A program made the translations under genes and the position numbers. Of a stretch of 56,211 nucleotides of DNA, positions 22,101-55,321 are shown piece after piece. The stretch is from positions 1-56,211 of IMG/VR virus record IMGVR_UViG_3300010354_000111; one strand, 5' to 3'. Source of the DNA: a virus. The notes beneath the pieces are model-generated. The model saw only the letters and a program-made list of their open reading frames with translations, was not told where the DNA came from and did not search any database. Numbering within the stretch: position 1 is the first letter of the stretch; every line of letters begins with the position of its first letter.

Positions 22101-22910
22101 GTATAGATTACTATCTACAGTCCAAAACACCGTCCTTCCATCAAACAATGTTGTATTTGGTAAATTATATGGATCAGTCCAAATGCCTACACTTGCTAGG
22201 GAATTAGCTGTTGGTGTATATGCTGCTGAAGGTGATATCCAATTACCTTCATTATATACGTATAAAGTATTACTTAATAATACTTGGCGACCATTAAAAT
22301 TATTTGTAGAGGGCAGGGTTCCAACTACTTGAACGGATGCTATAGTGTTAGCGTTCGGAGTCAGAGCACTAGCATTTATCCAAGATGTACCATTCCAAGC
22401 ATATAATTTGTTATCAGTAGTATTGAAAACTATCTGTCCATTAGTGGTACCTGGCGAAGCTATACTATTTACTAAACCTACAGGAGAAGGCGTATTAGCA
22501 CTAATATTAGCTATCAAGTTAGTTAAATTAATTATAGAAATTAAATTGATATTTGCTAATGCGTTTCCTAAATTAGATAAATTTACTATTTGTATATTAG
22601 CTAAGGCGTTGTTTAGATTGTTTAAATTGACAGCATATACAGTATTAATAGCATTATTAAGATTCGTAAGATTTACAGCATATACTGAATTTAATGCATT
22701 ATTAAGATTTGTAAGATTTACGGCGGCAACACTATCTACATAAGCTATAGTTGCATATCCATTCCCTCCACCTCCGCCACCGCCTGTAATAGCTATGGCA
22801 TAAACATTAGCAATATTTTTATTAATTTTATCAAAGGCTGTGCGAATGGGATCGCCTGTCCCATCATTAGCACTACTACCAATATTTACGTTACTTATTG
22901 TATATGGCAT
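19167..22910 (-). CDS. Giant tail fibre protein, paralogue A (1247 aa)
   Basis: The N-terminus (ISNVNIGSSANDGTGDPIRTAFDKINKNIANVYA) is almost the same as that of the adjacent 1926-residue protein and is common at the base of marine phage fibres. It is followed by NLNNALNSVYAVNL-type heptad-like repeats, a domain with NSLASVGIW and FDGRTVFW, and then about 18 short repeats of the kind ANAVTAVQLAANSVYARAL (nucleotides about 21200-22020). Next come a short collagen-like Gly-X-Y stretch (GSNGTNGTNGSSGSRG), a globular region, and a C-terminal domain of about 200 residues (GPFTGSHDGLLDYNEEFTFGD; GEGQINVCGEGGDIEIGDYITTSS). The layout is that of a trimeric fibre with a distal head. It ends TIACTYHCG. 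Host receptor binding is inferred. Confidence 0.82.
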   Translation of the reverse strand: MPYTISNVNIGSSANDGTGDPIRTAFDKINKNIANVYAIAITGGGGGGGNGYATIAYVDSVAAVNLTNLNNALNSVYAVNLTNLNNAINTVYAVNLNNLNNALANIQIVNLSNLGNALANINLISIINLTNLIANISANTPSPVGLVNSIASPGTTNGQIVFNTTDNKLYAWNGTSWINASALTPNANTIASVQVVGTLPSTNNFNGRQVLLSNTLYVYNEGNWISPSAAYTPTANSLASVGIWTDPYNLPNTTLFDGRTVFWTVDSNLYINIGGAWNSYNSYITGSGTPIVGANSINSAAIQAGAITSAKLASGSVVAGTIAAGAVSATELAANAVTANKILANAVTAGKIAAGAVKTEQIEAGAINSDLLAVNAVVAGKIAAGAISATEIAAGSLTANVFAANSVTANAIATNAVTTDKIAANSIDANKLAANSVYAGAIEANAVTSAKIQANAVTAVKIAALSIYAGALQANVVEANNIAANAVTAVQLAANSVYARALQANVVEANNIAANAITAVQLAANSVYARALQANVVEANNIVANAVTTLQIATNAITAKHIGANVITASMIDSRGLAIRDSGGNILFGSGSLARTITITDSTGNTKTLDQLSTATGSNPITFLNGPGAGGSFSSFAAANSAGAVVNNVIKLTDGNSYIKLANSSYVVFVEKGAQGSNGTNGTNGSSGSRGNYSVAKSIAGTSWNNDTANLAITEIFGGSSPTNRVNRDEVTLYNSAAKFSETRYWNTSTGTWIQFTSYINGGLLVDGTVTATQLAVDSVTTNKIAAGQITDSKITASGLSGTVIVDGTLAVNKLTTGTVATTSGRTFSLGTGTQVVNTTTGGVMQAVGVFESNVNDSIGLAVVSRNISNNNGYGVASFGGLNSSAAIVGLRGRTNNIDGNWESTSILNSNGVVQLNSFYTALNTLRTTFHLGSQQYSAYGYYYPGTFSPNRGSKFFGACSANFAGEFVAWDSNRENQFWNTQTLLGGNNIAGGFYFKYPGVDQIKTYAEIGHSSFAGYFAYLDSTNTAINVVQLATTGAYAIYWDGTGAPAGVGPFTGSHDGLLDYNEEFTFGDIVIDIEVVSKKSISDVITKVGLSHLPRQKAVVGVICNDIDKSDHIPAALSDFTVNNNSESITVQINEVETTQVPSANNDSKITRSVKAEFVSAYNNNRLVIFNSLGEGQINVCGEGGDIEIGDYITTSSMRGKGMNQNDENLKNYTVAKAREAVTFSSPTEVKTIACTYHCG

Positions 22911-22913
22911 TTA

Positions 22914-25900: not shown

Positions 25901-28694
25901 TAGATAATTTTACGTATGAGTTGCCATCTAATAATCTAACAACATTATTAGTAACTGCTCCTGCTGCATCTGCCGCTGCTGTACTATTATAACTACCATC
26001 TGGATTTGGGCCAGATTTAAATGTAACAGGCTGAGCACCGGATGCTGATGCTATTTGATCTAGTGTTCTAGTTACACCTAAAGAATCAGTTATACTTACA
26101 GTTCTAGCTATAGAACCAGAACTTAAAATTACATTACCAGTGGAGTCTCTTATAATTAAACCATTACTATTAATCATACCTGCAGTAATAACATTTGCCC
26201 CTACATGCTTGGCAGTTATTACATTTACACCCAAGGAATCCGTAGTGACAGAATTAGCTTGCAAAGCTCCAGCATAAATTGATAATGCAGCTATCTTAGC
26301 AGCGGTAATGGCATTTGCTTGAATTTTATCTGCAGATATAGAATTAGATTCTATAGCATTAGCTGTGACAGCATTAGCTGCTATTGTTAAAGCCGTAACA
26401 GCATTAGCAGCTATGGCGTTAGCTGTTACTGCGAATGCTTGAATGGCATTAGCATATACCGTATTAGCAGCTAATTGTACAGCTGTAATAGAATTAGCCG
26501 CTATTGTATTAGCGGTAACCGAATTAGCTTGCAATGCACCAGCATACACAGATAAGGCTGCTAATTGTACAGCTGTAATAGAATTGGCTGCTATTTTGTC
26601 TGACGTAATAGCATTAGATAATATAGCATTTGCATATACAGAATTAGCCGCTAATTGTACAGCTGTGATTGAATTAGCTGCTATATTATTTGCTGATACT
26701 GAATTAGCTTGTAAAGCGCCAGCATAAACGGACAATGCTGCAATTGTAACGGCAGTAACAGCATTAGCTGCTATCTTTCCTGCGGTTACTGCGCCAGCAG
26801 CTAAAGCATTGGCGTTGACCTCACCTGCTGCAATTGTAACAGCTGTAACTGCGTTAGCTGCTATCTTTCCTGCGGTTACAGCTCCCGCTGCTAGAGCATT
26901 CGCATTTACCTCACCTGCTGCTATTGTAACAGCTGTAACTGCGTTAGCGGCAATTTTACCAGCAGTTATAGCAAAAGCAGCTATACTATTAGCATCAACT
27001 GCACCAGCAGCTATAGTTGCAGTTGTAACAGCATTAGCTGCTATCTTTCCTGCAGTAACAGCAAGTGCAGATATTGCATTTGCATCTACTGCCCCTGCTA
27101 GTATTTTTACGGATGTGATAGAATTCGCTGCAATGGCATTAGCAGTTACAGCGTTGGCCTCTATAGCTAATGCTGTAACCGAATTAGCAGCTAATTTATT
27201 TGCAGTAATAGCAGAAGCTGCTATTTCGTTAGCTCCAATAGTACCAGCTTGTATTTTACCAGCTACTACAGAATTAGCTGCTAATAAATTAGCAGTAATT
27301 GCTCCTGCAGCTATTTCTGCTGATGTGATAGCTGCAGCAGCTATTTTTCCTGCAACAATTGCATTTGCGGCCACTTTATCAGATGTTACAGCATCTGCTG
27401 CTAACTCAGTTGTTCTTATAGCTCCAGCAGCTATTTTACCTATTATAATCGCGTTAGCTACAATTTTATCTGAAGTAATAATACCACTTTGTAAAGCAGC
27501 TGAATTTATTGTATTGGCAGCAAGTATAACATTACCTGATCCTGCTATGTAACTATTGAAACTATTCCATGCATTACCAACACTAATATACATTCCATTA
27601 TCACCACCTGTCCATAAAACAACACGACCATCAAAAAGATTAGCGGTAGGTAAAACGTTAGCTGATATTAATTGAATAGAGGCAATAGAATTTGCGGTGG
27701 GAGTAAAAGCAGATTGAGGATTCACCCAATCAGTTCCGTTCCATACGTATACTTGATTGTTGTAGTAAACTTGTCTACCAGTAAAATTATTTGTGGCAGG
27801 CAGAGAGTCTACAATCTGTACTGACGCTACAGAATTAGCATTCGGTGTAAATGCAGCAGTAGCTGTTATCCATGCAGTACCATTCCAAACATAAAGTCCA
27901 TTATCTGATTGATTAACTACAGTTTGACCAGTGACTGTTCCATTTGACTGTAGATTCGCTACTAAAGGAAGCGGGCCCGGAGTATTAGCAGATAAACTTG
28001 TAATTACAGTTGTGAAATTTGAAAGTGCAGTAACATTTACATTGGCTAACGCGTTGGATAAATTGCTTTGATCTAAAAGCTGAGCATTAGCTAAGGCATT
28101 ACTTAATGCTGATAAATTAACAGCGTTGACATTCGCTAAAGCATTATTTAAGGAACTGAGATTGACTGCATTAACATTTGCTAAAGCATTATTCAAAGCT
28201 GATAAATTAACGGCAGAAACATTGGCTAAAGCATTATTAAGTGCAGACAAATTAACAGCATTTACATTAGCTAACGCATTGTCTAGAGACGATAAATTCA
28301 CAGCAGCGACATTAGCTATAGCATTATTCAAAGCATTTAGATTCACTGCATTAACATTAGCTAACGCGTTGCTAAGATTAGAAAGATCTACGCCTATTAC
28401 TTGAGCAATTCTTAAATTAGTATAAGCGTTAGTTGCATCAAATTTTGAATCTAAAGTTGCAATAAACGCATTAGAAACACCTACATTAGATACGGCATTG
28501 TCCACATATGCTGTGGTAGCATACCCGGCAATTGTTATATTACCTACGTTACCACTAACTCCCCCTGCTAATAAGGCTAAAGCATAAACATTAGAAAAGT
28601 TTTGATTAATCTTATTAAATGCAGTGCGAATAGGATCGCCGGTGCCGTCATTTGCATAGGCACCTATATTAATATTGCTAATTGATAATGGCAT
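22914..28694 (-). CDS. Giant tail fibre protein, paralogue B (1926 aa)
   Basis: This is the longest gene in the window. It shares its N-terminus, repeat style and C-terminal domain with paralogue A, so the two are tandem duplicates. In order it has: the NINIGAYANDGTGDPIRTAF base; eight or so 15-residue repeats of NLSALNNALANVNAV type (about 28040-28385); WNGTAW-type modules; about 25 ANAVTAxxIAANSV-type units (26220-27520); three Gly-Thr-Asn collagen-like tracts (nucleotides 25809-25862, 24957-25055, 24615-24686) separated by folded domains, one of them Ig-like (residue stretch FKGVSVNWRGTYSASASYNNN); and the shared C-terminal domain with GPFTGGHDALLDYSETFEFGD. It is a likely long receptor-binding fibre. 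The C-terminal domain could be a trimerisation or folding aid, but I see no cleavage motif that proves it. Confidence 0.85.
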   Translation of the reverse strand: MPLSISNINIGAYANDGTGDPIRTAFNKINQNFSNVYALALLAGGVSGNVGNITIAGYATTAYVDNAVSNVGVSNAFIATLDSKFDATNAYTNLRIAQVIGVDLSNLSNALANVNAVNLNALNNAIANVAAVNLSSLDNALANVNAVNLSALNNALANVSAVNLSALNNALANVNAVNLSSLNNALANVNAVNLSALSNALANAQLLDQSNLSNALANVNVTALSNFTTVITSLSANTPGPLPLVANLQSNGTVTGQTVVNQSDNGLYVWNGTAWITATAAFTPNANSVASVQIVDSLPATNNFTGRQVYYNNQVYVWNGTDWVNPQSAFTPTANSIASIQLISANVLPTANLFDGRVVLWTGGDNGMYISVGNAWNSFNSYIAGSGNVILAANTINSAALQSGIITSDKIVANAIIIGKIAAGAIRTTELAADAVTSDKVAANAIVAGKIAAAAITSAEIAAGAITANLLAANSVVAGKIQAGTIGANEIAASAITANKLAANSVTALAIEANAVTANAIAANSITSVKILAGAVDANAISALAVTAGKIAANAVTTATIAAGAVDANSIAAFAITAGKIAANAVTAVTIAAGEVNANALAAGAVTAGKIAANAVTAVTIAAGEVNANALAAGAVTAGKIAANAVTAVTIAALSVYAGALQANSVSANNIAANSITAVQLAANSVYANAILSNAITSDKIAANSITAVQLAALSVYAGALQANSVTANTIAANSITAVQLAANTVYANAIQAFAVTANAIAANAVTALTIAANAVTANAIESNSISADKIQANAITAAKIAALSIYAGALQANSVTTDSLGVNVITAKHVGANVITAGMINSNGLIIRDSTGNVILSSGSIARTVSITDSLGVTRTLDQIASASGAQPVTFKSGPNPDGSYNSTAAADAAGAVTNNVVRLLDGNSYVKLSTGSWNLFLERGSTGTNGTNGTNGTNGTNGTNGVVAYLDNDSITLPCDGFGTVLSYAGANTTITVLNGGADDSGNWTFNAVKTNVITSQAVTSRTQTVTSLGANVGFVDITASRSGYASITRRFSISKAFRGVSVNWRGTYSASASYNNNDAVIYQGNSYLATYGRSNSQSIGTVTIGASGTFSLGAAAPANTLVVGFGMKVEGIRAGTGAITNYANTYEGNTYYITATNGSTTFTLSETLGGAAVGTTAGTSLGLGFLSPVSFSNQTPAPTGSAYWALIASSGANGTNGTNGTNGTNGTSGTNGTNGTNGTNGTNGSPGRRTAEIEMYRWSAVIPTTFPGGTSSYTWATGAFTAPATLNGWSTTPPAAVAGTTLWGVSQTYSDTDSAATNTITWSSTTAYSLGFAGTSGTNGTNGTNGTNGTNGTNGTNGSPGARGNLKIAKAIAGSAWSDAEANQAITDIVGGSSPSNRVNRDEVTLYNTSANFSQTRYWNSTTGTWIQFTAYINGGLLVNGTVSADQIAAGAVTTAKIATGSITTDRISASGINGTVISTGTLAVDRLASGSVSTSTGRTFSLGAGTQVINVTTGTAMPAVSVFETSTNDSIGVTAIARSISNNNGYCFAGFAGLNGAASYAGLKGRTNSIDGNWVNAVILNTVNEACASNFNHGLNNLASTFGYGLVSRAATGTYSTSGAAGIVQSFDLCSANYAGEFFRWAATNPNSVRTQTLLAGVSFGIGTYFFHSGSSVIKSYAEIAGNAVAGYFQSRNTSGTAINTVQIAQTATTGSYALYWVGTSGTGAGVGPFTGGHDALLDYSETFEFGDIVVDVEVVARHGISDTITKVSLSSAPNQKAAVGVISSDVDLTTHIPAALGEFEEDTNTIEIEDTYNEATGITTPTVKSKEVNTPVFKVKPQYQAILENNRLITFNALGEGQINVCGEGGDIEIGDFITTSSMRGKGMKQADDLFRNYTVAKSREAVTFSSPTEVKTIACIYHAG
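24615..24686. repeat. Eight 9-bp collagen-type repeats (fibre B, third tract)
   Basis: Direct 9-bp units such as ATTAGTACC and GTTAGTTCC encode Gly-Thr-Asn on the minus strand. Near-identical neighbours suggest recent expansion by slippage. The tract ends in GSPGARG. Confidence 0.85.
24957..25055. repeat. Eleven 9-bp collagen-type repeats (fibre B, second tract)
   Basis: Eleven tandem 9-bp units (ATTGGTGCC, ATTAGTACC, ACTAGTGCC and variants) encode Gly-Thr-Asn/Ser. All keep the 9-bp register, so length changes stay in frame. Confidence 0.85.
25809..25862. repeat. Six 9-bp collagen-type repeats (fibre B, first tract)
   Basis: Six tandem 9-bp units alternate ATTTGTTCC and ATTAGTACC, so an 18-bp higher-order unit is repeated. 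They encode Gly-Thr-Asn on the minus strand. Confidence 0.85.
26220..27520. repeat. Long array of degenerate repeats in fibre B shaft
   Basis: Roughly 48-base units on the minus strand encode ANAVTAxxIAA-type modules. Some adjacent units are nearly identical in DNA (for example around 26750-26950), while most differ at third positions, so the array mixes recent duplications with old diverged units. Confidence 0.75.
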
Positions 28695-31333: not shown

Positions 31334-34300
31334 TTATTTTCTATTTAACAGCATATCAAAATAATTTTTAAGTTTCATACTATCATATGTATTAGCTAAC
31401 TTATTAGTAATATACCATAAATACATATCCATTTTTTGACCTTGAATAACTGCACTTAAAATTTCTAAAGCTTCTTCTGTAGTAATAATTTTTTCATTTA
31501 TCCCCCTAAATAAAGCTCCACCGTCTCCCCATATGGACGAAGTTCCAAAATTATTAACTTGATAGGTACCATCGCCATCTACAAATAGGTTGAAAACGTC
31601 CTTATTTTGTACTAAAGATTTTTTATATACACTTAAAGGTTTAACATTTTTTATCCAAGGCATTTTTCTTGGAATTTCGTTTGGTTCATAACTATAATAT
31701 TCACCATTTATAATCAACGGATGATTTATTGTCCCGAATGGTTTTGTCTTATTTGGACTAACTAATTCGCCTGTGAATACTGATTTAACTTTAAATTTTA
31801 CAGTATTAATTTTAGTACCATCATGATTTAAAATTTTGTCCCCTACCTTTATATCTTTGATAGCTTTTTTCCTGCCATTCGCTAAAGTAATTTTACTATT
31901 TTCTTCAAAACACAATCCAAAAAGTACTGCTGTTAAAAACGCTGCTCCTTCTACTATACCTGCCCAGGCAGCAGCTGCAAAACTAGTTTCAGCTACGGCT
32001 ACTGCTCCATACGCTACAGAAAACTCAGAAGCTGCTGCTATAGCAGCTGCCTCCGCTGCAGTTAATGAAACTCCTAATAATGCATAATCTGCCGTTGCTG
32101 CAAGAGCAGCTGCACTTGCATCGAAAGCAACACCTCCTGCATTAAATGGGTCTAATACACCTCCTGGTTGGCTTAGCGTTAGCTCTGCCTGTGCGGCAGC
32201 TTCAGCAGATCTATCAACTATTTGAACTCCGTCTGCGGAATCCTTACCAAAAATTAAACCTTTACCAAATTCATACCCTCTGTATAATCCGCTAGCTAAT
32301 AATACTGGATTTGAATATGCAACTACTCCTGGAGGTTGTACTCCACCGGGATTAGGTGTCACTCTATCGGGTCCTCCGCCTGCAGACGTTACAGTATTTT
32401 CAACCTGTTGAATAAAAGTTTCTTCTCCTGTTTGATTAAATGTTAAAAGATCAGTTTTAATACTAAAATCAGGCGCACTAGTTGAATATAAACTGAATGC
32501 TGCAGCAGAAAAAGCTGGTAACAATTCTCCTTGTGTAGGTATACAAGTCGAGAAAGGATTTCTTATATCATTTGAAGCATACCCTGTAAAATCATCAACT
32601 AAAATACCAGTTTTAAAATAAAGATTGGCCTGGCTTCCCCCTTCAAACACTTGATTATTTAAAGCTATGATATCTAAACCTTGTTTCTTAACTCTTCTCT
32701 CTAATGACCCCAATCTAGTATCTAGATTCTCTATTTTTTTCATAGTATATCTAGGGGAATCATTGTAATAAATTTTGATATCAAAAGCAGACTGTGTAAA
32801 GGGTGGAACTACGAGAGTCGCTATAAGCTGCTGATCTCTACCAGAAATATCTTTTGAGGCATTAGGTACTAAAGAGGGTACCCCTTTATCTAAATAAAAA
32901 TTATATCCGTCACGATCTTTGGACACTGCTCTATTTTGAACATATAATCTATCTATTCTAGGCACATAATAATCATAATCTACTTGTAGGGCATTAGGTA
33001 GAACAGGATTGGGTCTAGGTGTATTAATACCATTATACATTAAACTAGCATTACTTGTATTATTTTTGATTGGTCTAAAATCTAAATAATTCCTCATATT
33101 ATAAACTGCACCATTAAGCGCAGATCTAAAATAAGGAATATTATTTTGTATACTAGCAGGATATGATGTAAAATCCACAACACCGGTTCTATTACTATTG
33201 AAATAATCTAGTATAACTACAACATTACCTGGATTATATGTGTTAATATTACCTTTATATGTTAAACTTCCTGTAACTATGTATGCGTCATATTGCCCAT
33301 TAAATGTGTCGTATAGTAAAGAATTTTCCTTAGGTATTTTAAACCAAACACTAGTATTAGATACAGGAACATTCGTTGAACCTGACAGAGCTTGATATAC
33401 AAGACCATTACTAACAACTATGTCATTGGTAACATAACTATTTGTAGTAGTATATGATCCATGATAAGTATTAGATCCAATCTTATAGATACCATTGAAT
33501 CTATAGATATCAGCTATGTATAAATCTATTGGAGTATTAGATCCTATTATTTCTGCCTTAACTGGAGTATTCGTCACTAATGTTTTAGTGGATCTAGGAA
33601 ACTCACTATTGTAAATGACAGCATTTACATCTACTGATCCAGTAACTAAAAGTGTTGAAAAAGTCAATGTTAACTGCTTCTTAGTTGCATCCAAATCCAT
33701 AATAATATTATCTACATCTACTGGTTGGCCTGCTGACAAGGTTCCCGAACTAGATGATCTTACTATAATCATGTAATATTGTCTTTTAACAGCATTTGAC
33801 AAAGTACCTGAACCTACAAATTCCTCATCACCAGTCAAAGTAATAGTAACCGTACTAGCAGATACTGTCCTATTTTCATAGGTTTTATTATAGTAAATCC
33901 TAATATTATTTACGTCTTTCAAATAATTAGAAGTTATAGGATAAAAAGCCTGTTCTTTAGTTCCTGCATCGTAGACTTTTAAAAGATTATTAGCATCTAA
34001 CCCAAAAGTAGTATTAACATTAGCAAAAAATGTAGGAGTAGAATATGTTCCTAAATTATTTTCTGCCGAGGTAAAAGGACTATTGACTCCTATTAAAGAT
34101 TTTACATTTTTCCAATCTCTGTTAGCTTCAAGATAAGTATAATACCAATATAGTCTATATCTTCTATTGTTTCCTTCCCCCCCATCGTAAACTATATGTT
34201 TAACAATAACACCACCAACTCTTGTAGAAGTACTCATAGCAGTTCTATCAGTAGTACTATGTGCTTCTAATGTATCATATAGTCTAATAGATGATTGGTC

Positions 34301-35671
34301 CACAAATCCAAATGAAGGATGATTAATTAAAGCATAATTATTTTCTGTAGTATCTAGAAATTGATCTTCTATAGATAAAAAATCTTTAGATTTAGGGACT
34401 AAAATTTCAGTTGGCCCTACAGTTTCTATTACTTGTCCACCTATTACGACCTTACCAGGCAAAATATCAAATTTAGCATACGCATCATCAAAAGTAGATC
34501 CCTTTGCTGATAATCTAAAAGGTAAGATATCATAATTTCCTGATTCATCAAAAGTTCTTTCAGCTAGTATTTCTCTTAATTTAATAGGTAAAGTATCTCT
34601 TGCCTGTTCTACAAATTCTTTAATCCCCTTATCAAATCTAACGATTTCAATATGATCATCAGTAGTATCTGGTAATTTACTAGTATTTAAATCTACAACT
34701 GCAATTTCAAGAGTAACTTTTAATCTATCGGCACCTGGGGCTAAGTAATTTGAACTATAGAACGCAGGGTCCAATAAAGTTTCGTCGTCATTATAATCTA
34801 TTAAAGTTTCCACATATTTTAATATAACTGACTTAGTTGGATATGCAGTATACTTATCAGGTACTATAGACTGTTCATTTAAATCTATAAAATATCCTTT
34901 CTTGTAATAAGTACCATTTGTAACAGTAACAATATTGGTAGGAGTAGTATTTTTTCTATAAAATGATAAAGTTGTTGAAGAAGCTAAAACATCGCCTATA
35001 TTTTTATTTAATCTTATAAGAGTATCAGATACAATTTCAGTAACAACCAGCCCTTGTGTAAAGTTTGAAGACATAGATAATAATTGATCTCCTACTTTAA
35101 TAGCAGCAGATTTAGATGCTAAAAGTATTTCATTATCTTCAGCTCCAGCTGTTCCAGTACCAAAAACTATAACATCTGCCGCAGCTATTTCGGATGCAAT
35201 GAAACTAGCATTTTTTGCTATAGCGTCCGTAATGTTATTATAAAAGTACAAAGTTTCACTAGAGCCAAAATCCACAGGGCCATCTATTCTCTCCAAAGTC
35301 ATAACTAAGGTAGGAGGATCACCAACTGCAGGATCATCTGCATTGTATGTAAATTTTACTTTTCCTACAGTATTACTAGTTGCTCCTGTAATGTAAGTAT
35401 TAGCATAAGTTGTAATATTAGCACCAAGACCAGATAATTTTACTGATCTTACTTCATCATTTATTACGAAACTTATAGGATCATTAGTGACTCTACTTCC
35501 TTCACCTACAACACTATCGCCTAATCTAGTAAACTGATTATGAGTTATAGATTGAACTTGGTTAAGTTCCCTTGATTGGATAGCAACACCAGGTTTATAC
35601 AATATTCTTTGAAAATTCTTTTTGCTATCATAGTCATCATAATAGGGAAAACTTTGTAAATTGACAGTCAT
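31334..35671 (-). CDS. DUF4815 tail protein with C-terminal Hint domain (1445 aa)
   Basis: The N-terminus (NLQSFPYYDDYDSKKNFQRILYKPGVAIQSRELNQVQSI) is the DUF4815 signature of large baseplate proteins in marine T4-like phages. A long beta-rich body follows, then an Ala-rich hydrophobic stretch (about 1190-1253). At C1254 a Hint (hedgehog/intein) fold begins: CFEENSKITLANGRKKAIKDIKVGDKIL (block A), TINHPLIING (block B His) and VFNLFVDGDGTYQVNNFGTSS (block F/G). The usual terminal Asn and following Cys/Ser/Thr splice junction is absent; GTSSIWGDGG and about 65 more residues follow. So it may perform only N-S acyl shift and cleavage at C1254, or be inactive. The known class suggests self-cleavage or crosslinking, but this is not shown here. 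Confidence 0.85.
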   Translation of the reverse strand: MTVNLQSFPYYDDYDSKKNFQRILYKPGVAIQSRELNQVQSITHNQFTRLGDSVVGEGSRVTNDPISFVINDEVRSVKLSGLGANITTYANTYITGATSNTVGKVKFTYNADDPAVGDPPTLVMTLERIDGPVDFGSSETLYFYNNITDAIAKNASFIASEIAAADVIVFGTGTAGAEDNEILLASKSAAIKVGDQLLSMSSNFTQGLVVTEIVSDTLIRLNKNIGDVLASSTTLSFYRKNTTPTNIVTVTNGTYYKKGYFIDLNEQSIVPDKYTAYPTKSVILKYVETLIDYNDDETLLDPAFYSSNYLAPGADRLKVTLEIAVVDLNTSKLPDTTDDHIEIVRFDKGIKEFVEQARDTLPIKLREILAERTFDESGNYDILPFRLSAKGSTFDDAYAKFDILPGKVVIGGQVIETVGPTEILVPKSKDFLSIEDQFLDTTENNYALINHPSFGFVDQSSIRLYDTLEAHSTTDRTAMSTSTRVGGVIVKHIVYDGGEGNNRRYRLYWYYTYLEANRDWKNVKSLIGVNSPFTSAENNLGTYSTPTFFANVNTTFGLDANNLLKVYDAGTKEQAFYPITSNYLKDVNNIRIYYNKTYENRTVSASTVTITLTGDEEFVGSGTLSNAVKRQYYMIIVRSSSSGTLSAGQPVDVDNIIMDLDATKKQLTLTFSTLLVTGSVDVNAVIYNSEFPRSTKTLVTNTPVKAEIIGSNTPIDLYIADIYRFNGIYKIGSNTYHGSYTTTNSYVTNDIVVSNGLVYQALSGSTNVPVSNTSVWFKIPKENSLLYDTFNGQYDAYIVTGSLTYKGNINTYNPGNVVVILDYFNSNRTGVVDFTSYPASIQNNIPYFRSALNGAVYNMRNYLDFRPIKNNTSNASLMYNGINTPRPNPVLPNALQVDYDYYVPRIDRLYVQNRAVSKDRDGYNFYLDKGVPSLVPNASKDISGRDQQLIATLVVPPFTQSAFDIKIYYNDSPRYTMKKIENLDTRLGSLERRVKKQGLDIIALNNQVFEGGSQANLYFKTGILVDDFTGYASNDIRNPFSTCIPTQGELLPAFSAAAFSLYSTSAPDFSIKTDLLTFNQTGEETFIQQVENTVTSAGGGPDRVTPNPGGVQPPGVVAYSNPVLLASGLYRGYEFGKGLIFGKDSADGVQIVDRSAEAAAQAELTLSQPGGVLDPFNAGGVAFDASAAALAATADYALLGVSLTAAEAAAIAAASEFSVAYGAVAVAETSFAAAAWAGIVEGAAFLTAVLFGLCFEENSKITLANGRKKAIKDIKVGDKILNHDGTKINTVKFKVKSVFTGELVSPNKTKPFGTINHPLIINGEYYSYEPNEIPRKMPWIKNVKPLSVYKKSLVQNKDVFNLFVDGDGTYQVNNFGTSSIWGDGGALFRGINEKIITTEEALEILSAVIQGQKMDMYLWYITNKLANTYDSMKLKNYFDMLLNRK

Positions 35672-45851: not shown

Positions 45852-46996
45852 TAGAAGCCTCTTTGCATTTCTCGTTTAGTTAAAAGTTCTACTTCTCTAA
45901 ATGTCAATGTTAAATTAACTTGTGTTGGAGCCCCGTTAGAAAAAGTAGAAAAACTATCACCACCATATTCTACACCCATATCAGTCAAAACACAATTACC
46001 TATTCTATGAAAATAAACGTTTTCTTTAGTATCACCCTTTTCATCGACAAAATAATATACTATATCAAATTCTGAAGGATAGATATAGAAAAATCCACTA
46101 GATGTAAGTTCTGGATGCATGTGTTCCTTAAACTTATCTATTATGTTTTTTACGTTTCTAGTTTCTTTTTCGCTTTTAGGAAAGAATCTATATCTAAAAC
46201 TAAATGTTCTGTAGTCTATTGATTCAAAAAGAACTTCATTATATGGATTTATTTGAACTCCGGCAGCTGCACCTAACAAGTCTGCTAATGTAGCTCCCCC
46301 TATAGCATTAGGAATCTTAGCTGCTTGTGCTAATCCTAAAGCTGCAGCTTCTCCTATATTATTTTTAAATGTATCCTTAGCAGAAGCAGTTGAAGCAGCG
46401 AATCCTGCTAGAATACCTAAACTTTTATTATTGTATTTTACACCATATTTTACTGAAGGTCTATCCTCTACATGTAATGTTACTACATCCTTCAATCTTT
46501 TGAATTTTGTTGGACTTAATACGGGAAGTCTTTTAATAGCTTCAGTAGCAATATAAGCTGTGGATAATGCTGTTATTCCGCCAGTAAACAAAAAAGAACT
46601 TGTATTTTTTAAAGTTTGTGCTGCAGATTTCCCCTTTAATCTTACAGCAGAATCTTTAAGAGTCTTTATTCCTACAGCAGTTGCTGCAGTTGTTAATGCG
46701 GTGCTAGTGACCAATGCTGTAGACCAGGCATTGCCATTCTTTCTTTGAGTTGCACTTATTACTGGAACTTCATTTTCAGATAATAATTCATTTTTAGGTT
46801 GTAATCTAGATTTATCCCTGACATTAATATAAAATGCTACAAAGTGCCTAAGATCGGGGGCAGTACCCAAATTTTCTGGATACTGAAAATTACCGACACT
46901 GACGTTATATTTAGAAAGATCGTAGCTCTTGTTTCTACGTTTTTCGTATTCCTCTAAATCGTCTTTTATTGTGGGTTGAGCTTGATTGTCGGCCAT
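45851..46996 (-). CDS. Baseplate tail tube cap protein, gp48-like
   Basis: T4 gp48 (364) and gp54 start the tail tube on the hub. This 381-residue product has a tube-type frame at both ends (NVSVGNFQYPENLGTAPDLRHFVAFYINVRDKSR; YRTFSFRYRFFPKSEKETRNVKNIIDKFKEHMHPEL; YPSEFDIVYYF; NCVLTDMGVEYGGDSFSTFSNGAPTQVNLTLTFREVELLTK) and an Ala-rich helical region between them (about 90-250). This matches the marine gp48 type. Its late promoter is at 47033, and it heads the minus-strand baseplate run. Confidence 0.8.
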   Translation of the reverse strand: MADNQAQPTIKDDLEEYEKRRNKSYDLSKYNVSVGNFQYPENLGTAPDLRHFVAFYINVRDKSRLQPKNELLSENEVPVISATQRKNGNAWSTALVTSTALTTAATAVGIKTLKDSAVRLKGKSAAQTLKNTSSFLFTGGITALSTAYIATEAIKRLPVLSPTKFKRLKDVVTLHVEDRPSVKYGVKYNNKSLGILAGFAASTASAKDTFKNNIGEAAALGLAQAAKIPNAIGGATLADLLGAAAGVQINPYNEVLFESIDYRTFSFRYRFFPKSEKETRNVKNIIDKFKEHMHPELTSSGFFYIYPSEFDIVYYFVDEKGDTKENVYFHRIGNCVLTDMGVEYGGDSFSTFSNGAPTQVNLTLTFREVELLTKREMQRGF

Positions 46997-47003
46997 TCTT
47001 TGA

Positions 47004-47011
47004 AATAAATA
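47004..47011 (+). promoter_or_regulatory. Possible late promoter for gp4 and plus-strand block (one mismatch)
   Basis: The plus strand reads AATAAATA, one base from consensus, 36 bases before the gp4 start, in the divergent 50-base gap. The plus block must start nearby because gp4 is its first gene; this is the best candidate I see. Confidence 0.45.
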
Positions 47012-47032
47012 ATAGGGGTAAGTGTTATTTAT

Positions 47033-47040
47033 TATTTATA
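47033..47040 (-). promoter_or_regulatory. T4-type late promoter upstream of gp48-like
   Basis: The minus strand reads TATAAATA 37 bases before the gp48-like ATG at 46996, so it drives the minus-strand baseplate operon. It lies a few bases before the plus-strand gp4 start, and its reach overlaps the candidate plus promoter. Confidence 0.75.
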
Positions 47041-47046
47041 TTCAAA

Positions 47047-47505
47047 ATGTATACAAAAACCTACAAGGGACGATTTAAACCATTAAATCCTAGTAAATAC
47101 AAAGGTGACGTTTTAAACGTCATCTATAGATCCCTATGGGAACTAAGATTTATGAAATGGTGTGACGGAAATACTTCAGTAATAGAATGGGGATCTGAAA
47201 CAGTAATTATTCCCTATTTGTCACCCGTAGATAATAGAGTTCATAGGTATTTTGTGGATTTTTATATTAAAGTTAGAAACTCTAATAACGTGGTACAAAA
47301 ATATTTAATTGAAATAAAACCAGAAAAATTCACAAAACCACCAGAGATCCCAGTAAAGAAAACTAAAAAATTTATAGATGAAGTTTACCAATATGGGATT
47401 AATCAAGCTAAATGGAAAGCTGCATTTGAATTTTGCCAAGACAGAAAAATGAAATTTATGATACTAACAGAAAAGGATTTAGGACTTACACCAAAAAATG
47501 GCTAG
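47047..47505 (+). CDS. gp4: Head completion protein gp4
   Basis: gp4 (genes 50/65 in T4) is needed to complete the packaged head. The ATG at 47047 gives 152 residues, near T4 (150); an upstream in-frame start at 46969 would run through the promoter region and is rejected. The sequence YTKTYKGRFKPLNPSKYKGDVLNVIYRSLWELRFMKWCD, then YLSPVDNRVHRYFVDFYIKV and YLIEIKPEKFTKPP is typical. The motif set (WELRFMKWCD; E, D and ExK spacing) resembles TnsA-type nucleases, to which gp4 is related. It starts the plus-strand block. Confidence 0.94.
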   Translation: MYTKTYKGRFKPLNPSKYKGDVLNVIYRSLWELRFMKWCDGNTSVIEWGSETVIIPYLSPVDNRVHRYFVDFYIKVRNSNNVVQKYLIEIKPEKFTKPPEIPVKKTKKFIDEVYQYGINQAKWKAAFEFCQDRKMKFMILTEKDLGLTPKNG

Positions 47506-48061
47506 TATATTTGACACTATAAAAGTAAATCAAGAGGATACGCAAAAATCCTATAGATGGTTTCAAAGCCAAGTTAAACAACTTGGCAGCAAAGTTAATC
47601 AAAATAATTTGATGCAAAATTCCAGGCAGATGAAAAATAATATCCTACCTGGAGAAATGTATCTTTTTTACTATGATCCAAAGCACAAGGAAACTCTACC
47701 GTATTACGACACTTTTCCACTAGTATTACCATTTAGAAAAGTTGAAGATGGATTTTATGGTATTAATCTACACTATATGCCTTATTTGATGAGATTTAAG
47801 TTATTAAAAGCTTTATCAGAAAATGCAACAGATACTAACTATAATCAAAATACCAAAATAAGAATATCGTGGAGAATACTAGTTAGTTTTTCATCCATAG
47901 CATCAATCAATGGCTCAGTTAAACACTATTTAGATAATCATGTTAAATCTAGATTTTTAAAGATAAATTATCCCGATTGGATCACAGCATCTCAATTACC
48001 TATTGAACAATTTGAAAAAGCTAGTAAAACTAAAGTCTGGAGAGAAGCTAGTAATAGGTAA
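47498..48061 (+). CDS. Conserved T4-like protein after gp4 (187 aa)
   Basis: The product has LPGEMYLFYYDPKHKETLPYYDTFPLVLPFRKVEDGFYGINLHYMPYLMRFKLLKAL followed by SWRILVSFSSIASINGSVKHYLDNHVKSRFLKI, a pattern common in marine T4-like phages at this position. In T4 the gene next to 4/50 is gene 2, the DNA-end protector (274). This could be its counterpart by position, but the shorter length and lack of a match I can vouch for leave it unassigned. It overlaps gp4 by 8 bases. Confidence 0.75.
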   Translation: MASIFDTIKVNQEDTQKSYRWFQSQVKQLGSKVNQNNLMQNSRQMKNNILPGEMYLFYYDPKHKETLPYYDTFPLVLPFRKVEDGFYGINLHYMPYLMRFKLLKALSENATDTNYNQNTKIRISWRILVSFSSIASINGSVKHYLDNHVKSRFLKINYPDWITASQLPIEQFEKASKTKVWREASNR

Positions 48062-48068
48062 GGATTAA

Positions 48069-48698
48069 ATGGCAAATTTTAATTTAAATAATTTCAAAAC
48101 AGCAGTACTAACTCAAGGTATTGCTAAACCTAATAGATTTGAAGTATTAATTACTGTGCCTACGGTGATGCAACCATATGTTAATGATGCTAGATTAGTA
48201 AGTCTATTTTGTGAGAGTGCAAATCTTCCTCAATTAAATCTAGGAATAGCACCACAAAGAATTTATGGTCCTAATTATCAAAATCCTTTAACTATAGAAT
48301 ATGGTGGCGAATCAATACCTATGTCTTTTTTGGTAGATCAAAAACTTGTAGTGAAAAAATTCTTTGATACTTGGATACACAAAATAGTAGATCCTGTTTC
48401 CTTTCATGTGGGATATAGAAATAGTCCAGCAACAGGTTATACTTCTAAAATTATAATACATCAATTAAATGAAAGAGACGATCCTGTTTATTCAGTAGAA
48501 CTTGTTGATGCTTTTCCTAGAAACATCGGGATACTAGATTTGAATATGGCGTCACAAAATACCCCACATAAATTGAATGTTACGTTCACATATAGGCGTT
48601 GGAAAATTTACAATGAAACCGAAAGAGCATTAGCAGGTTCAATTTACTTAAATAAGAAAAACGAGGACGGAACATTTAGACAAATAGATTTTCAATAA
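48069..48698 (+). CDS. Tail-tube-fold protein, possible gp54-type
   Basis: The 209-residue product reads FNLNNFKTAVLTQGIAKPNRFEVLITVPTVMQ, VSLFCESANLPQLNLG, PLTIEYGGESIPMSFLVDQKLVVKKFFDTWIHKIV and YSVELVDAFPRNIGILDLNMASQNTPHKLNVTFTYRRWKIY, each matching the tail-tube (gp19) fold in order. It is clearly related to the gp19 at 11202. T4 gp54 is a tube-fold initiator of the tail tube and is encoded next to other hub genes, so this may be that protein. Its context (gp4, gp26) agrees. T4 gp54 is longer (320). Confidence 0.75.
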   Translation: MANFNLNNFKTAVLTQGIAKPNRFEVLITVPTVMQPYVNDARLVSLFCESANLPQLNLGIAPQRIYGPNYQNPLTIEYGGESIPMSFLVDQKLVVKKFFDTWIHKIVDPVSFHVGYRNSPATGYTSKIIIHQLNERDDPVYSVELVDAFPRNIGILDLNMASQNTPHKLNVTFTYRRWKIYNETERALAGSIYLNKKNEDGTFRQIDFQ

Positions 48699-48707
48699 AG
48701 GAATATT

Positions 48708-49403
48708 ATGGCTTTGCCTATTTTAGAAACACCTACCTATGAATTGATATTACCATCCAATGGTAAAAAAATCAAATATAGACCTTTTCTAGTTAAAGAA
48801 TTTAAAATTTTACTTACAGCTATCGAATCTGATGCAGAAGAAATTACTAGAATTTTAACAGATCTTGTAGATAATTGTACATTTAATAAACTAGATATTG
48901 ATGCTCTTGCTCATTTTGATATAGAATTTATTTTTATTAATCTTAGAGCCAAATCAATAGGTGAAATAACCGATTTAGTTTACAAATGTGAATGTGAATA
49001 TGATAATAAGTTTACTATAAATTTGTTAGACTTAAAGGTGAATAAAAAAGAGAACTTCAATAACAAGATTATGATAACTAAAGATATAGGAGTTATACTA
49101 AGATATCCTAAATTCAATGAAATGATAGATATATATGAAAATCTAAATTCTACTAATATCATAGAACTAATTTGTAATTGTATAGAAAAAATATTTACTA
49201 AGGATCAAGTATATCAAACTAAAGATCAGGAAAAACAAGATATAATTACATTCTTAGAATCATTTACAAAAGAACAGTTTGAAAAAATAGAAAAATTTTT
49301 CTTGGATATGCCAAGAATTATACATGATGTAGAGCATACATGTGATGGGTGTAAAAAAGTAAATAATATAAAATTGGAGGGCCTGCAAAATTTTTTCGTC
49401 TAA
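48708..49403 (+). CDS. gp26: Baseplate hub assembly protein gp26 (0-frame product)
   Basis: The 231-residue protein (T4 gp26: 208) shows MALPILETPTYELILPSNGKKIKYRPFLVKEFKILLTAIES, then ALAHFDIEFIFINLRAKSIGEITDLVYKCECEY, then EKIEKFFLDMPRIIHDVEHTCDGCKKVN, the T4 hub protein family pattern. Two CxC/CxxC pairs (about 105-107 and 216-219) may bind metal. T4 gp26 is needed for hub assembly. The stop is at 49401, just after a slippery run, and the alternative -1 product is described separately. Confidence 0.9.
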   Translation: MALPILETPTYELILPSNGKKIKYRPFLVKEFKILLTAIESDAEEITRILTDLVDNCTFNKLDIDALAHFDIEFIFINLRAKSIGEITDLVYKCECEYDNKFTINLLDLKVNKKENFNNKIMITKDIGVILRYPKFNEMIDIYENLNSTNIIELICNCIEKIFTKDQVYQTKDQEKQDIITFLESFTKEQFEKIEKFFLDMPRIIHDVEHTCDGCKKVNNIKLEGLQNFFV

Positions 49404-49591
49404 CTCTTTCCCATGAGACCCTCGTAAATTTCTATAAGTTAAACTTTTCGTTAATGCATCACCATAAATACTCATTAACGGAATTAGAAAATATGCTTCC
49501 ATGGGAAAGAGAGATTTATGTTAGTATGTTGACGGCACATATTCGCGATGAAAATGAAAAAATAAAATTAAAAAACGCAAGGGGAATATGA
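48708..49591 (+). CDS. gp26 frameshift fusion (gpG/gpGT-like, -1 at 49388-49397)
   Basis: If ribosomes slip back one base at 49388-49397, the 230 codons up to Phe continue into a second frame that stays open to TGA at 49589-49591, giving about 294 residues. The extension of 64 residues reads RLTLSHETLVNFYKLNFSL, then MHHHKYSLTELENMLPWERE, then IYVSMLTAHIRDENEKIKL. The LPWERE segment resembles the extensions of tail assembly chaperones (lambda gpGT type). The extension's stop overlaps the next gene's ATG (ATATGATG), so the frame is genetically fixed. The only internal ATG (49454) has no ribosome site. Two canonical slippery heptamers and a stem support this. Coordinates span the whole fusion; the reused base is 49394 or 49397. 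Confidence 0.8.
49388..49511 (+). other. Slippery site and stimulatory RNA structure for -1 frameshift
   Basis: In the gp26 frame A_AAT_TTT (49388-49394) and T_TTT_TTC (49391-49397) are both canonical X_XXY_YYZ heptamers. After a spacer of 6-9 bases, CTCTTTCCCATG (49404-49415) pairs perfectly with CATGGGAAAGAG (49500-49511), 12 bp. Inside that loop, CGTTAATG (49449-49456) pairs perfectly with CATTAACG (49473-49480), 8 bp with a 16-base loop. This nested two-stem structure lies inside coding sequence, where random 12-bp complementarity is unlikely. Confidence 0.82.
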
Positions 49592-50151
49592 TGTTCGGAA
49601 TCAAAAAATCTGATAAGCCAGAAGAAGAAATAAAGGAAGAAGAAAAACCTGTTGAAGCTAATAAAGAAGATTGGATGACCAAAAAATGGCGTCCAATGAT
49701 GGCAATGATGTACATGTTATGTTGCCTTGCTGACTTCGCGATTTTTCCTATTATGTTTACTATTGTGCAGTTCTGGGAAACACAAGCAGCAAATGATGCC
49801 TTTAGGCAATGGGTGCCAATAACACTTCAAGGTGGTGGTTTATTCCATGTAGCAATGGGTGCTGTTTTAGGTGTTAGTGCGTTTGGTCGTACGCAAGAAA
49901 AAATTGCAGGTGCAGCTGGAGGTGTTCCAACTCCAACACTAAGTTCAGAACCACCTAAATTTAATCCAAGTATGAATATGCCTAATAATCAGTATAATCC
50001 ACAACCCTCGATGATGCAAAGTAGTTATACTCCACCTCAGTCATACAATTATAATTCTCAGGAATCCAATATGAATTACGGTGGTAGTAATGTAACAAGA
50101 CCTGATCCAAATGCTGAAGGATTTAGACCTACAGTGAGAAGACCTGTCTAA
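49588..50151 (+). CDS. Holin-like membrane protein (GTA-holin type)
   Basis: The 187-residue product has a charged, Glu/Lys-rich N-terminus, then WMTKKWRPMMAMMYMLCCLADFAIFPIMFTIVQFW (TM1, about 37-61), then QWVPITLQGGGLFHVAMGAVLGVSAFGRTQEKI (a second hydrophobic segment, about 80-98). The RPMMA-to-QEKI spacing matches the 3-TM GTA-holin family, used for lysis or gene-transfer agent release. The C-terminal 80 residues are Gln/Asn/Ser/Pro-rich and probably disordered. It starts at ATG 49588 behind AAGGGG, overlapping the frameshift stop, and its stop overlaps the next start. It may instead be a virion-associated membrane protein; the link to lysis is inferred. Confidence 0.65.
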   Translation: MMFGIKKSDKPEEEIKEEEKPVEANKEDWMTKKWRPMMAMMYMLCCLADFAIFPIMFTIVQFWETQAANDAFRQWVPITLQGGGLFHVAMGAVLGVSAFGRTQEKIAGAAGGVPTPTLSSEPPKFNPSMNMPNNQYNPQPSMMQSSYTPPQSYNYNSQESNMNYGGSNVTRPDPNAEGFRPTVRRPV

Positions 50152-51650
50152 TGGAAAAAAGACTTCCATTTCTTTTAGGGGGTAGACCTGATGGCACTAC
50201 ATGGTCTCCTCCTTCCACTGATAGACTAATAACAAATTTTTCTAATCAACAAGATGTAAAGATCCAAAATAAAATATTTGAAGAGATACAACTTTTAAGA
50301 AAAATTTCTGCAAATAATGCTCAATCTAATCAAAGAACAAGCAATGCTCAATTAACGGTTAAAACTATTAAAGCTGATTCTAATCAAAATAGAATAAAAG
50401 AACAGCAGACTGCTAGAGAGACTAAACCTGCTGAAGAAGCTAAACCTGCTGCAGCTATGATAGATTCTAAACAATTCTATTCTGATTTTACAGAATTAAT
50501 AGTATTACTTAGAAGATCTGAAGGCGAAAGGAAAAGAGAAAGAAAAGAAAGTTATAATCTTAAAGATGATATGAAGGCTTTTGTAAAACAAAACAATACT
50601 TTTATGAAAGAGATGAGTGCTCTGTTTAATAAAAAACAAGAGGCAGCTACGGCAGGGGGTGTCCAAGTTAACACTGTGGATGCTAATAGAGAACTTTTAG
50701 CTACAGCTATAGCAGATAAAATGGTTTCAGGGCTAGGTCCATACTTTGATGCGTTATTGAATAAATTAGATAACGTAACGGGTGGGCCAGATATAGACAT
50801 TAATAGAAGACCTAAAACAGTTCCATCCGGTCCAATACCTGGAGGTGGACCTGCAGGAGGACCTAGTAAAGATGGAGGCAAGAATCCTAAAAAGGGGCCT
50901 ACGGGAGGGAAAAAACCACCAACACAAGTTCCCGGTGTTATGGGATTTTTAACTAGATTAAACTTATTAGTTACTGCTGGATTGATAGGATATAACGTAT
51001 ATGAGGGTCAAGGGGATGAAGCTACTAGAGAAAATTTTGATTTAGAAGAAAACCAAATACCTACTACAGCACAAAAAGCTACATCTGGAGTTGCTAATGC
51101 TATATCTGGGCTAACTTTCGGAATAGCTGATACAAAGAAAACTGCTCAATACTTAGGCAAAGTATTTGGTGTAGAATCTACAGCTCCATCTGTTACTGTG
51201 GGTTCAGTTGAACCGATGCCTACTGGAAATGATAGACAAAGTTATAATAGAAGAAAAGAATGGATGGAAAAATATGGCAATACTCATAATCCAGATGGAT
51301 CACCAAAGAGCAATAAACTAACATTACCTGGGGCACAACCTATACCCCCAGGTACTAGTACTGCTGGAGGAGGGCGAGGAGATATGGGTTATCCTCTTGC
51401 AGTTGCTGAGGAAGGAGTTGAAGTTATTTCTTCACCTTCTACTTTAACTGAAAGATTAGAAAATGTGGAAGAAGAATTTGATTCTTTATTAGATGAATTA
51501 GAAAAATCTAGCAAAGTAGTTTCAAAATCTGAAATTTCAACAAATATCATATCTAATAATGATATTAAGTATTTGCCTGCAAGAGCTACACCAAATAATA
51601 GTGAGGATAGTTTAGAAAAATGGTTAGAAGGTAGATCGGTATATGGTTAA
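50151..51650 (+). CDS. Structural protein, possible tape-measure/hub type (499 aa)
   Basis: I do not recognise a domain with certainty. The N-terminus (EKRLPFLLGGRPDGTTWSPPSTDRLITN) is followed by helical, Lys/Glu-rich coiled-coil stretches (about 35-165), a Gly/Pro/Lys-rich linker (about 220-260) and a hydrophobic segment GFLTRLNLLVTAGLIGYNVY (about 264-283). Next come a Gly/Ala-rich helical segment SGVANAISGLTFGIADTKKTAQYLGKVFGVE and an acidic, coiled-coil-like tail. Coiled coils plus one hydrophobic stretch, directly after a tail-chaperone-like frameshift gene, fit a tape-measure protein such as T4 gp29 (590). Otherwise no gp29 is visible in the window. A terminator closes the block. Confidence 0.5.
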   Translation: MEKRLPFLLGGRPDGTTWSPPSTDRLITNFSNQQDVKIQNKIFEEIQLLRKISANNAQSNQRTSNAQLTVKTIKADSNQNRIKEQQTARETKPAEEAKPAAAMIDSKQFYSDFTELIVLLRRSEGERKRERKESYNLKDDMKAFVKQNNTFMKEMSALFNKKQEAATAGGVQVNTVDANRELLATAIADKMVSGLGPYFDALLNKLDNVTGGPDIDINRRPKTVPSGPIPGGGPAGGPSKDGGKNPKKGPTGGKKPPTQVPGVMGFLTRLNLLVTAGLIGYNVYEGQGDEATRENFDLEENQIPTTAQKATSGVANAISGLTFGIADTKKTAQYLGKVFGVESTAPSVTVGSVEPMPTGNDRQSYNRRKEWMEKYGNTHNPDGSPKSNKLTLPGAQPIPPGTSTAGGGRGDMGYPLAVAEEGVEVISSPSTLTERLENVEEEFDSLLDELEKSSKVVSKSEISTNIISNNDIKYLPARATPNNSEDSLEKWLEGRSVYG

Positions 51651-53852: not shown

Positions 53853-54115
53853 ATAGGGAGTTTGCCTCTTTTAATTCTCAAAAAATTTTGTTCTTCCGCC
53901 TCAATTTGAATTTTGTCTTTAAGAGTTTGATTAATTAATTTTGCTATTGATTCCACATCTATATCAATTTCATTACAGTATTGTATCACTGCATCCATAT
54001 ATCCAATTTTATTAATTTGTACTCTTTCTTCAATGTATAATGAAAATTCATTCGGTGATCTAAATCTTTTAGTAATGATAATGGAATCAGTTAATTCTTT
54101 TTTTAGTTCATCCAT
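53849..54115 (-). CDS. gp33: Late-transcription coactivator gp33
   Basis: gp33 links host RNA polymerase to the sliding clamp and with gp55 activates late promoters. The start at 54115 (MDELKKELTDSI) gives 88 residues (T4: 112); an earlier ATG at 54145 would extend into the bilin reductase frame and has no ribosome site. The block SPNEFSLYIEERVQINKIGYMDAVIQYCNEIDIDVESIAKLINQTLKDKIQIEAEEQNFL is the conserved gp33 core. It is followed by gp59 with a 4-base overlap. Confidence 0.9.
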   Translation of the reverse strand: MDELKKELTDSIIITKRFRSPNEFSLYIEERVQINKIGYMDAVIQYCNEIDIDVESIAKLINQTLKDKIQIEAEEQNFLRIKRGKLPI

Positions 54116-54797
54116 TGCGGTTGTTTCTTTCTGGAAATAAAACACTGTCCATGTATCCTTGAAATAAATTTTTATTCACTCCCAAACTATGCATCATGTG
54201 CGGTGTTCTAGGATTCTGTTTTTGATAATAACAATAACGATCTTGAGAAACTGAATAATCTTTAGTTGAGTCTCTAGATGATCCAACATTATCTAAATAA
54301 TATTTAAAAGTATTATAATATACTTTGGATGCTAGATCAAATTCATTTTTATCCAAATTACCTGCAGCAATCATACTATTAGAAAATATTTGAAATGCCC
54401 ATTCAGGCAATTCTCTTTTCTTATTAGGATAATAAGTACTGGAAATTTCTTTAAACTCGTTCAGCATAAAATGCTTCGAAGATCCTGATACAGAATAATC
54501 ATGAAACAACCCTGTAATTTTGTCCTTACCACATACTATATCAAATCCAAAGATTGGAGAAGGATCATCATAATGTGGAAAAATACAAAAGTGCATGATC
54601 CAAATTTTCTTTAATTCCCTAGCATCTACCACTTCTACATGAGCTCTTCTAAATTTTTCACTTTGAAAAATATAATTTTCCCATTTAAAATCATATTGAT
54701 TATGATCGAAGGTGTATGGAATAAATTTTGCTTTTCTTAATAAACTACCTAAAGTATAAGAAGCTAATTCTTCTGCTCTGTCCCAAATATCAAGCAT
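54108..54797 (-). CDS. Ferredoxin-dependent bilin reductase (PcyA/PcyX-like)
   Basis: These enzymes reduce biliverdin with ferredoxin electrons to phycobilins. The 229-residue product has FRRAHVEVVDARELKKIWIMHFCIFPHYDDPSPIFGFDIVCG with the PcyA catalytic residues at matching spacing: E55 (PcyA E76), H69 (H88) and D86 (D105), except that two residues are added between E55 and H69. D58 nearby could play the role of the Asp seen in PcyX. The C-terminus carries QNPRTPHMMHSLG, a family block. PebS, PebA and PebB lack the His. So the enzyme is of the PcyA/PcyX lineage, not PebS. Whether it makes phycocyanobilin (PcyA) or phycoerythrobilin (PcyX) is not decided by the sequence. Its start overlaps the heme oxygenase stop (TAATG). 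No ferredoxin is encoded here. Confidence 0.88.
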   Translation of the reverse strand: MLDIWDRAEELASYTLGSLLRKAKFIPYTFDHNQYDFKWENYIFQSEKFRRAHVEVVDARELKKIWIMHFCIFPHYDDPSPIFGFDIVCGKDKITGLFHDYSVSGSSKHFMLNEFKEISSTYYPNKKRELPEWAFQIFSNSMIAAGNLDKNEFDLASKVYYNTFKYYLDNVGSSRDSTKDYSVSQDRYCYYQKQNPRTPHMMHSLGVNKNLFQGYMDSVLFPERNNRNG

Positions 54798-55321
54798 TAA
54801 TTAAAATCCCTAATAATGGAAATATTATAATCAAATGCAATATTGGCTTCTTCTGCTAGATCAGGTCCGCACCTTTTTCTCATTTCAACAATTAAGGCAG
54901 GTATGTTATCAAATTGATACATAGTGCCAGAACCTGGTACTAATTTTTTAAGTTGTTGTCCACCAAATAAATCTCCCATATGCCTAACATAGATATGAGC
55001 CATAAGTTTATCTTTGTCACTACTTATTGTTTGAATATACTTACAGTATTTGTCTGTAGAAAGATTTATAATATTTCTATAATTACTACTACCAACTAAT
55101 TCCAAGAAGTCTTTCAAGACATGTTTATGCCTTTTCATATCTTCTATACCCTTGAATAGAGTATCGCCACTATGTTCTAGTTGATAATACACATGATACA
55201 GCTGATACAAATAATCAGTATATTTTTTTGCATCAACTTGATTGCTGAAAATACTTTTAATAAAGGGTTGGGACTCTGCTAATAAATGTTTTTCTTTTGT
55301 AAATTCTTTTAATGTACTCAT
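54797..55321 (-). CDS. ho1: Heme oxygenase
   Basis: Heme oxygenase splits heme to biliverdin, iron and CO, supplying the substrate of the bilin reductase next door. The 174-residue product has FTKEKHLLAESQPFIKSIF (H12 is the likely proximal heme ligand), a YLYQLYHVYYQLE helix and the distal-helix motif GDLFGGQQLKKLVPGSG (116-131). It is shorter than cyanobacterial HO1 (about 240), being trimmed at the C-terminus. It is coupled by overlap to the bilin reductase and to the preceding membrane protein (ATGA). Biliverdin production during infection is the direct expectation. Confidence 0.92.
   Translation of the reverse strand: MSTLKEFTKEKHLLAESQPFIKSIFSNQVDAKKYTDYLYQLYHVYYQLEHSGDTLFKGIEDMKRHKHVLKDFLELVGSSNYRNIINLSTDKYCKYIQTISSDKDKLMAHIYVRHMGDLFGGQQLKKLVPGSGTMYQFDNIPALIVEMRKRCGPDLAEEANIAFDYNISIIRDFN

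Follow-up and report, generated by a model that had tools for sequence, protein, structure and literature searches.

The gene order around gp26

The window analysed here is the whole 56,211-nt stretch of IMG/VR record IMGVR_UViG_3300010354_000111 (positions 1 to 56,211), the source virus of which is a T4-like phage. The end of its gene 26 raises the question of whether one gene gives rise to two tail assembly chaperones by a programmed −1 frameshift. In systems of the phage lambda type, short and long chaperones form a coat on the tape measure protein and recruit the subunits of the tube, and T4 was named in 2016 as an exception to tail-chaperone frameshifting (PMC5009743). The original prediction, made from the sequence of the window, proposed a counterpart of the lambda gpG/gpGT switch at the end of gp26.

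Gene 26 belongs to a block of genes on the plus strand that includes those for the head completion protein gp4 (46969-47505), the DNA end protector gp2 (47498-48061), and, directly 5′ of gp26, a protein assigned by its profile match to the tail tube family (48069-48698). The 231-residue gp26 (48708-49403, plus strand), the putative short tail assembly chaperone (TAC-N), matches PF12322 (E = 6.3e-59) and phrog_150 (E = 1.2e-63) in profile searches, and T4 gp26 in a BLASTP comparison (E = 1e-16). The structure of gp26 has been modeled confidently (pLDDT 85.8), and the viral fold matches of the model are mostly gp26-family proteins. A fold search of the PDB with the gp26 model gave no significant match to any solved structure, tail assembly chaperones included; the HK97 chaperone 2ob9 was among the top matches, with an E-value of 1.0 that is below significance.

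Downstream of gp26, on the same strand, is a 187-residue holin-like ORF with three transmembrane segments (49588-50151; PF11351, E = 8.8e-7), the start of which has an SD energy of −7.6 kcal/mol. It separates gp26 from the presumed tape measure gene in the window and in about 25 related contigs, and is absent in other relatives. The subsequent 499-residue ORF (50151-51650, plus strand) occupies the place of the tape measure gene and is assigned from position alone. It has no significant match among the PF and phrog profiles and no phage match; weak phmmer matches connect it to long ORFs that occupy this place in a small number of related viral contigs. The syntenic ORFs that follow the extension of gp26 in S-PM2 and XZ1 belong to the tape measure families phrog_9570 (E = 5.3e-21) and phrog_58 (E = 1.4e-6), respectively. 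The gene order includes a tail-tube-family gene directly 5′ of gp26, and a tape measure match on the 3′ side only in these two relatives.

Slippery site and reading frames at the end of gp26

The gp26 frame ends with the TAA stop codon at 49401-49403 and is preceded by the sequence AAATTTTTTC at 49388-49397. The end of the gene is read in frame as CAA AAT TTT TTC GTC TAA, and AAATTTTTTC therefore holds two overlapping heptamers in the phase of gp26: A AAT TTT (49388-49394, plus strand) and T TTT TTC (49391-49397, plus strand), the second of which is a canonical −1 heptamer just 5′ of the stop. Reading after a slip would continue from 49397 as CGT CTA ACT and so on, for 64 codons up to the TGA codon at 49589-49591, which overlaps the ATG (49588-49590) of the holin-like ORF. 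The positions and codon count of the original prediction were correct in this respect. The extension (49397-49591, plus strand) is the counterpart of the domain at the C-terminus of T4 gp51 (TAC-C), and the predicted fusion of gp26 with the extension has approximately 294 residues.

The extension is related to the C-terminal domain of gp51

In profile searches, the extension was assigned to phrog_634 (‘baseplate hub assembly catalyst’, gp51; E = 2.7e-28) and also aligned to the C-terminus of phrog_150, the N-terminal part of which is gp26. It aligns to residues 200-244 of T4 gp51 (E = 3e-6; profile E = 3e-5). The 249-residue T4 gp51 is itself composed of a gp26-like PF12322 domain (residues 1-201, E = 3.9e-52) and a C-terminal domain that matches the extension; T4 gp26 is formed by the PF12322 domain alone. 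The structure model of the extension contains four helices (mean pLDDT 79.5), which agrees with the compact helical segment that had been anticipated, and a fold search with this model gave no significant match. Among solved structures, the sole homology matches to the extension were weak ones to an HIV gp41 helix, and these were dismissed as chance.

The extension frame contains no stop codon in any of 101 dereplicated relatives, compared to 711 and 678 stops in the other two frames. Its median pairwise dN/dS is 0.18, compared to 0.39 for gp26, and the part before the first common methionine has a dN/dS of 0.25. As judged from these substitution rates, the extension is under purifying selection. 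The extension is AT-rich and short, as a frame that is open by chance might be; however, the lack of stops, the dN/dS, and the match to phrog_634 have already refuted this explanation, to which practically no probability can be given. The expectation that the frame is beyond chance was also borne out by the neighboring plus-strand genes, in which −1-frame runs of at least 62 codons are found at 0.5% of positions.

Conservation of the slippery heptamer

Searches of viral contigs with gp26 and with the extension yielded 160 loci. Among the 158 that contain gp26 as well as the extension, 157 have the latter in the −1 frame relative to gp26; the sole exception, L102, has a normal junction, but its gp26 frame is broken further upstream. 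All 103 dereplicated loci contain T TTT TT[C/T] in the phase of gp26, and none of them has the extension frame without a slippery site, which would have spoken against the original prediction. The junction is formed by a codon ending with T, TTT, and then TTC (96 loci) or TTT (7 loci). Codons ending with T and TTT are each used at a background level of about 80% in the same genes, and the joint per-genome probability of the invariant T TTT in the 103 loci is about 1e-23 if their kinship is ignored. Dual coding accounts for part of the constraint on the C of TTC, which is also the first base of an arginine codon in the −1 frame; it does not apply to the T TTT ahead of it. The overlapping heptamer A AAT TTT is poorly kept, with 35 of 101 relatives containing it, and was rejected as an essential site; the comparison suggests that it is probably dispensable for the slip. 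Of the two heptamers, T TTT TTC alone is kept, which refines the original prediction.

All 15 examined isolate genomes with gp26 followed by the extension contain T TTT TTN. They include P-SSM2, S-PM2, S-CAM8, S-CRM01, DSL-LC03, S-PRM1, Mosig, and Melnitz-1 from the family Kyanoviridae, phiM9 and AF3 from the Pootjesviridae, XZ1 and 1.081 from the genus Schizotequatrovirus, PX29 from Angelvirus, and phages DLP_6 and Milchi. The heptamer of phiM9 and AF3 (loci L167 and L173, near position 1500) is T TTT TTG, a natural variant in which the A-site codon encodes leucine and not phenylalanine.

Alternative origins of the extension

Many public records present gp51 as a separate small gene with an internal start, for example the ATG at 49454 of the window. 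Separate gp51 coding sequences are annotated in the records of P-SSM2, phiM9, Mosig, and S-PM2, and an in-frame ATG is located 21 codons past the slip in most relatives. However, the annotated starts vary from record to record, or gp51 is omitted. An independent start of gp51 is unlikely, because the first common methionine of the extension lacks an SD sequence: the mean anti-SD energy is +0.56 kcal/mol, none of 84 relatives reaches −5 kcal/mol, and the value at the ATG of the window is −1.0 kcal/mol. A strong ribosome start for the extension, which would have spoken against the original prediction, was thus looked for and not found. Moreover, selection already acts 5′ of this methionine, and the 19 residues ahead of it align with T4 gp51. 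The first ATG of the −1 frame was rejected as an independent start, and there is only a slim chance that gp51 is a separate gene, which would leave the invariant in-phase heptamer and the SD-like element upstream of it unexplained.

Even less probable is that the fusion is produced by transcriptional slippage on the T run, although a run of six T’s is present in all relatives with this layout. Bacterial transcriptional slippage has been described for runs of about nine A’s or T’s (PMC5009743), whereas the run at the end of gp26 is mostly six T’s followed by C (96 of 103 loci), and both the codon-phased heptamer and the SD-like element at a spacing characteristic of −1 slippage point to the ribosome. 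Homopolymers are prone to errors, and an indel from sequencing or assembly could have split one continuous ORF; however, 157 of 158 contigs share one frame relation with the 15 isolate genomes, which come from various laboratories and lineages. This has already refuted the explanation, the probability of which is negligible.

Putative stimulators of the proposed frameshift

The sequence GGAGGG (49376-49381, plus strand), located 9 nt 5′ of the heptamer T TTT TTC, is an SD-like element that is proposed to act as a 5′ stimulator of ribosomal frameshifting. The energy of its duplex with the anti-SD sequence is −9.8 kcal/mol, compared to −5.6 kcal/mol at the start of gp26. Most relatives contain a purine-rich SD-like element about 8-10 nt 5′ of the heptamer, and the mean best anti-SD energy in 102 relatives is −5.7 kcal/mol, compared to −5.5 kcal/mol for the gp26 starts and −1.4 kcal/mol for the background. 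Shuffling of synonymous codons upstream of the heptamer, with the codon use of each gene retained, resulted in a mean of −4.5 kcal/mol (standard deviation 0.13; z = −9.1, which is somewhat inflated by the kinship of the loci). Because the shuffled sequences fall short of the observed energy, the element is selected beyond the requirement for the conserved Glu-Gly-Leu residues that it encodes.

In the dnaX gene of Escherichia coli, the slippery heptamer is preceded by an SD-like element at a distance of about 10 nt. The element of the window is similarly within about 9-11 nt of its heptamer, a spacing that suits SD-stimulated −1 shifting, and it probably promotes the slip much as that of dnaX does. 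By contrast, the heptamer of dnaX is A AAA AAG and is followed by a strong stem-loop, whereas the window contains a weak stem alone 3′ of the heptamer (z about −1), and no consensus structure was found 3′ of the heptamer in the clade of the window. A strong 13-bp hairpin 3′ of the heptamer is confined to marine relatives, many of which have it; 89% of its cells are paired, and four of its pairs have changes on both sides. A general role of motifs resembling ribosome-binding sites in frameshifting is stated in PMC10885494.

These comparisons make it fairly likely that the conserved SD-like element, by pairing with 16S rRNA, drives the frameshifting of T4-like chaperones, that 3′ hairpins have been gained and lost by lineage, and that the slippery codons are lacking in T4-group phages with a separate gene for the long form. 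The SD-like element is a simple candidate for the stimulator of the slip, and if the SD-driven reading is true, control of the dnaX type would set the ratio of short to long chaperone. The element and the lineage-specific hairpins may be new details of the system.

The two-gene arrangement of T4

The same two protein domains are present in the window phage and in T4. However, the long form of T4 is an uninterrupted separate gene: T4 genes 26 and 51 are apart, on opposite strands, and gene 26 is without the slippery run. Phages IME13 (Tulanevirus), Mineola (Jiaodavirus), and UP87 (Biquartavirus) have a separate full-length gp51 like that of T4, and the run of six T’s is absent from the end of gene 26 in all four genomes. 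The Phe-Phe pair is retained in gp26 of T4 and Mineola, in which it is written TTC TTT. The absence of the run where gp51 is its own gene fits the pattern expected if the run serves the slip. The two products that T4 makes from two genes would, in the window phage, both come from a single gene through slippage.

Proposed mechanism and relation to described systems

It is highly probable that a programmed −1 slip at T TTT TTC of gp26 gives rise to short (gp26) and long (gp26-gp51C) tail assembly chaperones, with the slip likely aided by the SD-like element. Such a programmed frameshift agrees with all of the comparative tests. Its support, as shown by comparison, includes the phase and conservation of the heptamer, the selection on the extension, its domain identity with T4 gp51, and the lack of an independent ribosome-binding site. 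The efficiency of the frameshift and its stimulation by the SD-like element are inferred, as is the action of the chaperones on the tape measure and tube, for which the position, domain identity, and layout of the genes argue.

In the proposed mechanism, a minority of ribosomes would move back by one base on T TTT TTC near the end of gp26, with tRNA-Phe re-pairing from TTT-TTC to TTT-TTT. The slip would probably be aided by base pairing between GGAGGG and the tail of 16S rRNA. The slipped ribosomes would miss the stop codon of gp26 and add 64 residues, which would result in the long chaperone gp26-gp51C. Like lambda gpG/gpGT, both chaperones would cover the tape measure protein, bring in tail tube subunits, and then leave the tail. 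Lambda combines a short chaperone with a rare −1 fusion near the tape measure gene, and the window phage would do so near its presumed tape measure gene; the extension of the window, which is under selection and without its own start, resembles the G/GT type. However, lambda slips on G GGA AAG, a site that differs from that of the window, and lambda gpG/gpGT have no detectable sequence or fold homology to the window proteins.

In the study of Vladimirov, Gautam and Davidson (Virology 2022, 566:9-15), gp26 and gp51 were reportedly identified as the tail assembly chaperones of T4, with conserved frameshifting in several T4-like groups. The novelty implied by the original prediction was mistaken, since the frameshift of T4-like phages had already been described in this study, as cited in PMC12846349 and PMC10885494. 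In the latter, the study is cited for T4-like phages that carry a separate fusion gene instead. The systems of Vladimirov et al. 2022 reportedly share with the window phage the gp26-family short form, the gp51-type C-terminal domain, and the poly-T slippery site, with T4 itself having two genes; the window phage differs in nothing essential and appears to be another member. The comparisons identify it as a well-supported further example of the described switch, for which the mechanism stands and the novelty does not. Data from many lineages support the view that the exception to tail-chaperone frameshifting ascribed to T4 holds for the T4 group alone. The ‘gp51’ annotations in the genomes of cyanophages and related phages are most likely the ends of gp26 fusions, which calls for their re-annotation.

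Other features of the window

Several other genes of the window, all on the minus strand, were recorded. Two very long fiber-like ORFs of 1247 and 1926 residues (19167-28694) contain repeats of the ‘NAVTAxxIAAN’ type and have similar C-termini, apparently because of duplication. A 1445-residue DUF4815 protein (31334-35671) includes a C-terminal Hint-like stretch at residues ~1250-1320, with matches to Hint, Hom_end_hint, and Vint that are below the cut-offs, and resembles a remnant of an intein or self-processing domain. Adjacent genes for a heme oxygenase (PF01126, E = 7.8e-22) and a ferredoxin-dependent bilin reductase (PF05996, E = 2.5e-19) at 54108-55321 form a pair of the bilin-synthesis kind known from marine phages. 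A QueE-like radical SAM gene at 346-1191 (phrog_2076, E = 2.4e-52) suggests a 7-deazaguanine pathway.
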